From NCBI RefSeq assembly GCF_008124605.1, contig NZ_VRYN01000001.1, positions 856,772 to 920,771 of the forward strand: a DNA stretch of 64,000 nt. The letters run 5' to 3'. The DNA comes from Halobacterium salinarum DSM 3754 (GTDB taxonomy: Archaea > Halobacteriota > Halobacteria > Halobacteriales > Halobacteriaceae). Shown in pieces: positions 47,361-49,067 of the stretch. The notes beneath the pieces are model-generated. The model was not told where the DNA came from and made no database searches. It worked only from the letters and a program-made list of their open reading frames with translations. The stretch's first letter is position 1. Every line of letters begins with the position of its first letter. The position numbers and the translations under genes were made by a program.

Positions 47361-48314
47361 TTACTGTTGGTCGGCGATGTGATCGACGTCCGCAAGCACC
47401 GCCGACGCCGTTGCCGCCCCGCCAGCACCCTGTCCGGACAGGTTCAGCCGCCCCGCGTGCTCGGTCTCCAACTGCACGATGTTCGTGGTCCCGGACACCG
47501 CAAGCGTCCCGTTGGCCGGCACCAACCGCGGCCCGACCCGCACGTGATCCGGCCCCACCTCCCCGATCAGCCGTATCGTCTGCCCGTCGGTCTCGGCCAG
47601 CTCCAGCGCCGACGGTGCCACCCCCGTGATCCCGTCGACGCTGACGCTGTCGAGGTCGTACTCACGGTCGCCGATCACGTTCGCGAGGATCGCACACTTC
47701 AGCGCCGCATCCGTGCCGTCCACGTCAAACGTCGGATCCGCCTCCGCGACCCCCACCTCTTGTGCCTCCGCCAGGACGTGCTCGTACCCCAGTCCCGCCG
47801 CCGCCATCCGCGACAACACGAAGTTCGCGGTCCCGTTCAGGACGCCACGGACAGCACGCACGCGGCCGGCGCCGATGCGCTCGATGGTCGCCATCACGGG
47901 GATCGCACCCCCAACAGTCGCCTCGAACCGGAGGCTGCCCGCGCTCGCCGACGCCAGCTCGCACACCCCAGCGTAGCGCTCGGCGACCGGGCCCTTGTTC
48001 GCGAGCACGACGTGGCGGTCCGCACTCAGCGCGCGCTCGACGTGCCCGAAACCGGGCTCGGCGTCCCCCAGCGTCGTCGGCGTCGCCTCCACGAGCACGT
48101 CGTAGTCGGCGGCCAACGCGTCACTCGGCGCTCCCGCCCCGATCTCACTCGCCGCGTCGCGCTTGCGCGCACACACCGCCGCCGCGTCCACCCCCGAACC
48201 GTCGACGACCGCGCTCGTCGAGTCCGCCACCGCAACCACAGTGTGGCCGTGGGACGCGGCCTGGTCGACGACCGCCTGCCCGACCGCTCCCGCCCCCATG
48301 ACGGCCAGTCTCAT
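47361..48314 (-). CDS. hom: Homoserine dehydrogenase
   Basis: This 317-aa enzyme reduces aspartate semialdehyde to homoserine on the way to threonine and methionine. The Rossmann motif is VMGAGAVGQAVVDQAA, then HVVLANKGPVAE near residue 100 and the catalytic region VLNGTANFVLSRM with GVAEADPTFDVDGTDAALK near residue 190. It lacks the C-terminal ACT domain of long bacterial forms; the upstream gene, overlapping by 4 bp, encodes a separate ACT protein that could supply regulation. The 154-bp spacer to tuf holds no gene. Confidence 0.95.
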   Translation of the reverse strand: MRLAVMGAGAVGQAVVDQAASHGHTVVAVADSTSAVVDGSGVDAAAVCARKRDAASEIGAGAPSDALAADYDVLVEATPTTLGDAEPGFGHVERALSADRHVVLANKGPVAERYAGVCELASASAGSLRFEATVGGAIPVMATIERIGAGRVRAVRGVLNGTANFVLSRMAAAGLGYEHVLAEAQEVGVAEADPTFDVDGTDAALKCAILANVIGDREYDLDSVSVDGITGVAPSALELAETDGQTIRLIGEVGPDHVRVGPRLVPANGTLAVSGTTNIVQLETEHAGRLNLSGQGAGGAATASAVLADVDHIADQQ

Positions 48315-48835
48315 CGCCGATCACCCGCCAGCGGCTCGATCACGCGGACGCCCGCCTCGGCGGCCACCGCTCGCACGGCCGCCAGCGCGCGCTCGGCTGC
48401 ACCATCAGCCACCCCCATCCGGAGGCGCGCACTCGCCTCGTGATCCACCCCTGGCTCGTCGGTCAACGCGAACTCCACCACCGAGGCGGCTTCACACTCC
48501 TCGACGGACGCGAGCAGCTCGGACAGATCAGTGGCCACCAGATCCCCCACCAGCAGCACCGTCACCGCGTCCGCGTAGCGCTCCGCGGTGGCGTCGATGA
48601 CGGTGACGCCCGCGTCCTCCAACGCCCCCACCACCGTCTCGAACCGGTCGGGCTGACACTCCACGGTCACCTCCACGGGGATGCGGCCGCGCGGCGTCAC
48701 CGACCCGCGCTCGTGGAGGACCGACAGCAGGTTCCCCCCTGCGTCCGCGATCGGCGCAAGCGCAGCCAGCAACGCGCCGGGCTCGTCGGCAAGCTCCAGT
48801 CGGAGCACGTGGGTCCGATCCGCGGGCGCGGTCAC
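48311..48835 (-). CDS. ACT-domain protein upstream of homoserine dehydrogenase
   Basis: This 174-aa protein begins with an ACT domain (HVLRLELADEPGALLAALAPIADAGGNLLSV) and continues with a second ferredoxin-like region (PVEVTVECQPDRFETVVGAL). ACT domains bind amino acids, so it is probably the allosteric partner of Hom, whose gene overlaps its end by 4 bp. I prefer the GTG at 48835, which puts the ACT domain at the N-terminus and overlaps the stop of an upstream 38-codon frame (GTGA). An in-frame GTG at 48886 would add 17 residues. Confidence 0.82.
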   Translation of the reverse strand: MTAPADRTHVLRLELADEPGALLAALAPIADAGGNLLSVLHERGSVTPRGRIPVEVTVECQPDRFETVVGALEDAGVTVIDATAERYADAVTVLLVGDLVATDLSELLASVEECEAASVVEFALTDEPGVDHEASARLRMGVADGAAERALAAVRAVAAEAGVRVIEPLAGDRR

Positions 48836-48948
48836 GGCCACCCCACCCCCTGCGTGGCACCCCGCCGGACGCGTGTTGTCGGCCACGAGCCGGACTGCAG
48901 TCGCTCGGTGCCGACCCCGCAGCTCGGATCGCGTCCGCCTGCGAACAT
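48832..48948 (-). CDS. Possible 38-aa leader reading frame coupled to ACT gene
   Basis: The frame starts with the ATG at 48948 (MFAGGRDPSCGVGTERL) and stops with TGA overlapping the GTG of the ACT gene. A strong TATA box (TTATAA, 48973-48978) lies 25-30 bp upstream, exactly the spacing of a leaderless transcript starting at this ATG. The peptide is basic and unlike haloarchaeal proteins, so a regulatory leader is more likely than a functional protein. Confidence 0.4.
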   Translation of the reverse strand: MFAGGRDPSCGVGTERLQSGSWPTTRVRRGATQGVGWP

Positions 48949-48953
48949 GAGTT

Positions 48954-48978
48954 GCAGTCGGACTGCTGGCTGTTATAA
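48954..48978 (-). promoter_or_regulatory. Promoter and operator candidate of ACT-hom operon
   Basis: The minus-strand TATA box is TTATAA at 48973-48978. Between it and the predicted start of transcription is a perfect repeat, GCAGTC (48954-48959), one base, GACTGC (48961-48966). The same half-sites recur at 48893-48902 as GACTGCAGTC. Four copies of GCAGTC/GACTGC within 75 bp suggest a repressor binding site. Confidence 0.5.
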
Positions 48979-49067
48979 CGCTTCGGCCGAGTCAACTCCT
49001 GCCGGCGTCGCCGAGCGCGCGACCGGCCGTCGACGCGCCACGAAATCGAACCCCCCGCGAGAACGGA

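Follow-up and report, generated by a model that had tools for sequence, protein, structure and literature searches.

A conserved leader frame with rare threonine codons ahead of the ACT–hom operon of haloarchaea resembles a bacterial amino-acid sensor

Introduction

What is the role of a 38-codon open reading frame that lies between a putative promoter and the ACT–hom operon of Halobacterium salinarum DSM 3754, and whose stop codon overlaps the start of the first gene? In bacteria, attenuation by leader peptides is a classic mode of gene control, and we know of no case in which it has been demonstrated in archaea. The window that we analysed is a stretch of 64,000 nucleotides (contig NZ_VRYN01000001.1, positions 856,772 to 920,771). 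On its minus strand, read 5′ to 3′, the TATA box TTATAA (48978–48973) is followed by an ATG (48948–48946) that starts 30 nt past the first T of the box, by 38 codons encoding the peptide MFAGGRDPSCGVGTERLQSGSWPTTRVRRGATQGVGWP, and by a TGA (48834–48832) that overlaps the GTG of the ACT gene (48835–48833). The original prediction took this arrangement to combine a translated leader with an operator built of GCAGTC/GACTGC half-sites. The features that it described (the TATA box, the ATG, the 38 codons, the TGA/GTG overlap and the four half-sites) are all present and their coordinates are right; it made no mention of the threonine codons or of the stem-loop described below.

Results

Organization of the locus

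The features of the locus are as follows.

48973–48986, minus strand: promoter, comprising CCGAAGCG, which we take to be a putative BRE-like element, and then the TATA box TTATAA at 48978–48973 (sequence; TATA-like element in relatives).
48954–48966, minus strand: palindrome GCAGTCCGACTGC between the TATA box and the start, not conserved (sequence; genome search; comparison of 56 leaders).
48832–48948, minus strand: 38-codon leader-peptide frame, probably leaderless (sequence; kept in 13 of 13 genomes of the genus and in 59 of 60 over three families).
48879–48914, minus strand: stem-loop P1, in which UCGGC (48914–48910) pairs with GCCGA (48883–48879) and CGAGC (48907–48903) with GCUCG (48890–48886) (covariation in alignment A1; folding z).
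48893–48902, minus strand: GACTGCAGTC, the in-frame GCAGTC/GACTGC half-sites, which form the apical loop of P1 (sequence; stem comparison).
48874–48879, minus strand: codons 24 and 25, ACA ACA (Thr Thr), the proposed control codons (ACA at codons 23–26 in 55 of 56 leaders).
48841–48850, minus strand: G-rich, SD-like stretch GGGGGTGGGG ahead of the ACT start, of putative function (sequence; GGAGGTG or similar, by eye, in many relatives).
48832–48835, minus strand: GTGA overlap of leader stop and ACT start (sequence; overlap geometry over 56 leaders).
48311–48835, minus strand: ACT-domain gene, 174 codons (Pfam PF01842, E = 4.5e-7).
47361–48314, minus strand: homoserine dehydrogenase gene hom, which shares ATGA with the ACT gene (Pfam PF00742, E = 3.9e-50; NCBIfam homoserine dehydrogenase models).

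By eye, a conserved GG(T/C)AGGAnTTG is seen upstream of the hom-leader promoter across the genus (L009–L020; about 49005–48985 in the window).

The leader frame recurs in three haloarchaeal families

Searches with the ACT protein gave matches in 13 of 13 genomes of the genus, 25 of 26 of the family and 287 of 293 of the order, and the region upstream of the ACT gene was read in 117 genomes. One bacterial locus from the search for related loci was left out of the comparison, as were two second ACT paralogues (L033 and L034), which are more divergent ACT-type gene copies in two f1g3 genomes (G016 and G017). Within the genus, a leader frame of 35–40 codons stands behind a TATA box in all 13 genomes. 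In a set of 60 genomes from three haloarchaeal families (f1g1, f1g3, f1g6, f1g7, f5 and f9), a scripted TATA–ATG rule identified leaders of 33–58 codons in 56, and three more were found otherwise (G080, with 38 codons, and G262 and G163, which at 67 and 65 codons exceed the length limit of the rule), so that 59 of the 60 have, behind a TATA box, a leader of 33–67 codons that leads into the start of the ACT gene preceding hom. (A 70-codon frame in G019, of f1g4, falls outside this set.) The original prediction had proposed a comparison of close relatives, and there the frame is intact throughout the genus; the one broken case, G280, belongs to another genus, has one base fewer than its sisters in a run of C and retains an intact ACT gene. 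This break could be real or could be a sequencing error.

Among the 56 leaders obtained by the rule, the TATA–ATG distance is always 27–31 nt, a spacing favoured by the selection rule, which required a TATA-like element. Between the leader stop and the in-frame ACT start the overlap is exactly 4 nt in 48 of these leaders and 8 nt in 7; in the remaining one the two are adjacent. A strict rule that called for the 4-nt overlap returned a leader of at least 9 codons in 72 of the 117 genomes, but overlooked that of the window itself owing to the point at which the protein match starts. The 72 include 25 TATA-linked mini-frames of other families, which are 9–44 codons long and overlap the ACT start. 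The leader is not present in f1g2, in f1g5 or in five of the six f17 genomes, and the ACT gene itself lies directly behind a TATA box in nine genomes (five of f17, two of f1g2 and two of f1g5).

Because the DNA is GC-rich, an open frame is by itself weak evidence: a shuffled leader has a probability of 0.67 of staying open, and of the 56 leaders 37 are open in one of the two alternative frames and 38 in the other. The weight is carried instead by the codons, the overlap and the spacing. Since the frame recurs in three families with position-specific codons, the comparison confirms it as real and as more than a product of chance.

A rare threonine codon is held in position within the leader

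The codon ACA occurs within codons 23–26 in 55 of the 56 leaders and is absent from codons 1–22 in all of them; the sole leader that lacks it at codons 23–26, that of G253, has ACC at codon 25. At codons 23–26, 94 of the 105 threonine codons are ACA. The rest of the leaders has 6 ACA among 204 threonine codons (Fisher p = 1.6e-58), and the ACT genes of these genomes have 11 among 564 (p = 1.3e-88); both values overstate the certainty, because related genomes were treated as independent. The three leaders found outside the rule hold ACA too, at codon 24 in G262 and G163 and at codon 25 in G080, which has others at codons 5 and 28. Threonine makes up 14.7% of residues in the leader frame, versus 6.4 and 7.1% in the other two frames, and of the ACA triplets in nucleotides 66–77, 94 lie in frame and one does not. 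In several leaders isoleucine codons stand next to ACA, as in ACA ACA ATT ATT (G006), ATT ACA ATT ATT (G259) and ACA ATT ACA (G024/G025).

Taken together, the TATA–ATG spacing, the conserved frame, the overlap and the in-frame ACA give good comparative support to the part of the original prediction that read the frame and its overlap as a translated leader. A conserved frame that appears to lead the mRNA and that holds rare threonine codons looks like a bacterial leader-peptide sensor of an amino acid, and we consider it quite probable that the frame specifies a translated leader peptide by which the ribosome senses threonine supply for the ACT–hom operon.

Leaders with cognate codons precede ilvB and pheS

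Regions upstream of thrC, ilvB, the aspartokinase gene, trpD and hisG were inspected in 12 of the genomes, and those upstream of pheS in 16. The ilvB gene is preceded by a leader of 23–34 codons that ends ..(ATT) ATT/ATC GTA GGG .. stop, giving the peptide end (I)IVG(A). This leader was found across the order in 34 of 36 loci (11 of 12 of L166–L177 and 23 of the 24 examined among L264–L289); as the loci were searched by GTAGGGG, the figure for GTA is selected for. Six of the 42 ilvB loci were left out of the 36 (L260–L263, L277 and L281, of families f10, f12 and f2), of which the four f10/f12 loci gave no match and the two f2 loci have a leader-like frame. ATT precedes GTA in 27 of the 34 leaders; in genes, GTA is used for 9 of 1813 valine codons and ATT for 62 of 768 isoleucine codons. 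A leaderless start is likely at ilvB, if not for each locus, since 31 of the 42 loci pass a loose TATA rule. In the 14 loci that were folded, a GGGG..CCCC hairpin lies across the leader stop, with no consistent T-run after it. By eye, a palindrome-like element, GCAA-N(2–3)-TTGC (for example GGCAACGTTTGC and GGCAAGCCTTGC), is seen shortly upstream of the ilvB TATA box in many of 12 loci (L166–L177), and is perhaps a transcription factor site.

Before pheS, a leader of 25–29 codons ending GFGFFF or similar was found in 14 of 16 genomes (L290–L305), in which TTT makes up 12 of 56 phenylalanine codons compared with 8 of 295 in genes. Of these 14 leaders, only 4 satisfied the TATA rule; others have a T-rich stretch in place of a TATA box. 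In most of these genomes, a fairly constant GG(T/C)GGAC is visible by eye after the stop of the pheS leader.

The codons are specific to the pathway. ACA is held by 55 of 56 hom leaders, 5 of 34 ilvB leaders and 2 of 14 pheS leaders; the corresponding counts are 12, 31 and 0 for ATT and 1, 1 and 10 for TTT. All three leaders occur in the window's own genome, those of ilvB and pheS being MQSHTARSAVLAGSGVAVGLGIVGA and MVPEPQIRCMRPETAPHPGFGFFFDA. Clustered codons for the end product, a hallmark of attenuators, are thus present at hom, with parallels at ilvB and pheS. Before thrC and the aspartokinase gene, a quick scan (12 genomes for each gene) detected no comparable leader. No Trp-rich leader was found before trpD in 12 genomes (one, G101, has an unrelated 51-codon frame), and trpD itself lies behind the TATA box in both genomes where one was called (G286 and G006). 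For hisG no leader was listed in 12 genomes, a weak negative because the TATA rule failed even for hisG's own ATG.

These leaders bear on the possibility that the frame is a constitutive minicistron, which would do no more than feed ribosomes to the ACT gene by termination–reinitiation, given that haloarchaea initiate well on leaderless mRNA, and whose threonine codons would be a slow patch devoid of sensing. The mini-frames that overlap the ACT start in other families are what such a role would lead one to expect, with 24 of the 25 lacking any ACA (the exception, in G038, has it at codon 4), and in the available text of PMC6728339 SD motifs are described as not being used for de novo initiation in haloarchaea. 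However, a minicistron of this kind leaves unexplained why the rare codon matches the product of the pathway at hom (Thr), ilvB (Ile and Val) and pheS (Phe), and we regard it as unlikely.

A stem-loop lies just upstream of the ACA codons

P1 sits immediately upstream of the ACA codons and spans codons 12–24. Alignment A1 brings together in one register 23 of the 56 leaders, from six genera; the rest have the stem in another register or none. Both sides of the stem change at 4 of the 13 pairs of A1. Three measures, namely the covariation score, the proportion of paired cells and the count of doubly changed cells, were each reached by 0 of 500 shuffles, and the first two exceed those of six slid registers, with such scores being inflated by the relatedness of the leaders. 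The other two of the five measures fell within the shuffles (doubly changed pairs, reached by 42 of 500, and further pair types, reached by 153 of 500). With one representative for each of 15 genera, the folding z of P1 against dinucleotide shuffles had a mean of −1.96, with 13 of 15 below −1; against synonymous shuffles the signal in the same genera was weaker (mean −0.94, 9 of 15 below −1). The folding signal is absent in G152 and G033. As a predicted structure, then, P1 is supported by folding and by compensatory changes.

Searches against Rfam gave three matches at chance level (E = 3.6–9.9), far below gathering scores, and none at the gathering score in five loci. A model of P1 (R2), run over 26 genomes of the family with 150 of the thousands of first-look candidates per genome scored, produced one strong match per genome, with E at or below 2.6e-11, in the 13 f1g1 and 2 f1g7 genomes, always before the ACT gene. 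Weak second matches were seen at G012:C1:2704111-2704159 (28.9 bits) and G010:C1:216548-216608 (27 bits).

The position of P1 also helps in weighing two other explanations of the leader. According to one, the product is an arrest peptide, whose conserved nascent chain (GTE....RS.PTT) would stall the ribosome at high levels of threonine or some other metabolite and so reduce reinitiation at the ACT gene. The motif is common to f1g1 and several f5 genera, and the sign of such a response agrees with strict coupling; yet g3, g35, g52 and f9 have lost the motif but kept the threonine codon, and much of the motif coincides with the arms of P1. An arrest peptide therefore strikes us as improbable. 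According to the other explanation, P1 and the adjoining ACAACA form an RNA element that is bound by a protein, a tRNA or a metabolite, with the frame being secondary. Although the covariation of the stem and its folding signal would suit an element of this kind, ACA keeps to the frame by 94 to 1 in nucleotides 66–77, the frame is kept in leaders that range from 33 to 58 codons, the spacing between stem and ACA differs between genera, and nothing in Rfam scored above the gathering score, all of which makes an RNA element very improbable.

The GCAGTC palindromes are neither conserved nor enriched

The four half-sites (48966–48961, 48959–48954, 48902–48897 and 48898–48893) amount to two palindromes, GCAGTC-C-GACTGC and GACTGCAGTC, and so are not four independent sites. 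Within the window, GCAGTC/GACTGC shows no enrichment, with 40 occurrences against an expectation of 50.9. Nor is the 13-mer GCAGTCCGACTGC enriched in the 2.36 Mb genome, which contains one mismatch-free copy; with up to two mismatches the counts were 86 and 122, as against 101 and 107 for a reversed-pattern control. Among the 56 leaders, hexamer sites between the TATA box and the ATG are confined to the window's own leader and to a single hexamer in G033. We therefore reject a DNA operator at which a repressor would bind the palindromes, with the frame being fortuitous: although the palindrome between the TATA box and the start is perfect in the window, its lack of conservation in relatives and of enrichment in window or genome leaves such an operator hardly credible. 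The in-frame half-sites, which had been proposed as part of it, instead constitute the apical loop of the conserved P1. Thus, sequence comparison upholds the translated leader of the original prediction and does not bear out its GCAGTC operator.

No terminator or SD-masking switch was detected

The stretch 3′ of P1, after the ACA codons, showed no structure beyond chance (mean folding z 0.04 over 15 genera, 3 of 15 below −1). Between the ACA codons and a point 60 nt beyond the leader stop, none of the 56 leaders has a run of at least four T, and the idea of a T-run terminator there was dropped (0 of 56). With neither such structure nor a T-run after the ACA codons, there is no classical terminator at hom. 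Mutually exclusive terminator and antiterminator hairpins were likewise not found at hom, where one conserved stem precedes the codons and none beyond chance follows them. A switch in which a stalled ribosome releases a masked SD stretch was rejected as well, there being no effect over 55 leaders: the predicted accessibility of the ACT start region was 0.348 free versus 0.345 with a ribosome masked onto ACA (higher in 32 of 55). In a few genomes, though not in others, CGTGCC-like stretches ahead of the SD were seen by eye to offer the 5′ arm of P1 an alternative partner; this pairing is not claimed here.

Discussion

The findings point to a mechanism whose steps, from the transcription start to the action of P1, we infer from the layout of the leader. 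Transcription would start at or beside the leader ATG, where the ribosome would initiate in leaderless fashion. In translating codons 12–24 the ribosome would unfold P1, and would then decode the rare ACA at positions 23–26, in some species together with the isoleucine codons that follow. After about ten or more further codons it would reach the stop that overlaps the ACT start, at which it could reinitiate; a second such overlap joins ACT and hom. When threonyl-tRNA is scarce, the ribosome would wait on the ACA codons and cover the 3′ arm of P1, so that P1 is held open, and when threonyl-tRNA is plentiful, the ribosome would move on and P1 could re-form behind it. Threonine shortage would be expected to raise expression, as in bacterial attenuators.

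We found neither a terminator nor an SD-masking switch, and so the final step and whether control is positive or negative are likewise what we infer. In Haloferax volcanii, Huber et al. 2019 describe strict coupling at an overlapping gene pair, with translation of the downstream gene lost when the upstream frame is stopped (available text of PMC6728339). We take this pair to be ACT–hom, and by analogy with it the leader should gate ACT and hence hom. Strict coupling alone would have starvation lower hom, which is the opposite of attenuator logic. Nevertheless, as the leaders of hom, ilvB and pheS all follow the cognate-codon rule, we lean towards threonine shortage raising expression.

More broadly, the three leaders probably belong to a general amino-acid control of haloarchaea. 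Ribosomes on mostly leaderless leaders would read cognate, largely rare codons (ACA at hom, ATT/GTA at ilvB and TTC/TTT at pheS), and the output would pass through RNA hairpins and, at hom, through termination–reinitiation, an architecture that does not rest on the terminator switch of bacteria. As far as could be found, the literature holds no report of leader-peptide attenuation in haloarchaea: the available text of PMC12482152 names attenuation only for the trp operon of E. coli, as an analogy, and in the available portions of PMC12186497, PMC8303175 and PMC7531240 there is nothing on leader-peptide attenuation.

The closest archaeal parallels come from Haloferax volcanii. The hom leader shares with the termination–reinitiation pairs of that organism the 4-nt ATGA/GTGA overlap and differs from them, as far as the available text of PMC6728339 goes, in that the cistron upstream is here a small leader frame whose rare codons are position-specific. 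Among the uORFs in long 5′-UTRs that Table 2 of Babski et al. 2016 lists (PMC4983044, available text) are one of 26 residues before pheS and one of 23 residues before the gene for a tryptophan–tRNA ligase. The former may be a Phe leader of the kind found here (25–29 codons); unlike in the present set, hom and ilvB are absent from that table, and no amino-acid sensing is proposed in the available text.

If our reading of the leaders is correct, leader-peptide attenuation would extend to a third domain of life, and archaea would also use control by charged tRNA, in their case on leaderless mRNA. With leaders this short, and with genetically tractable laboratory organisms among those that carry them, the idea is open to testing. 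Among systems outside the archaea, the fungal arginine attenuator peptide and the bacterial arrest peptides exert control over the flow of ribosomes to a biosynthetic gene from an upstream frame. The leaders described here share with them the upstream frame and the biosynthetic gene downstream, and differ in that the threonine codon is conserved, whereas the peptide is not conserved across all genera.

In bacteria, thrL, ilvL and pheM are short leader frames with clustered codons for the end product ahead of an amino-acid operon or a synthetase gene. Unlike these, the hom leader is archaeal, has a probably leaderless start, overlaps the first gene with its stop and carries its stem-loop before the control codons; no SD switch, no T-run and no downstream hairpin that exceeds chance was found. 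Because terminator and antiterminator hairpins were not found, we do not file it as a transcription attenuator of the thrL/ilvL/pheM type, although it may still work like one. The haloarchaeal leaders resemble thrL, ilvL and pheM in being short frames between a promoter, as judged from sequence, and the first gene, and in the codons that they present to the ribosome: threonine with some isoleucine at hom, isoleucine and valine at ilvB, and phenylalanine at pheS.
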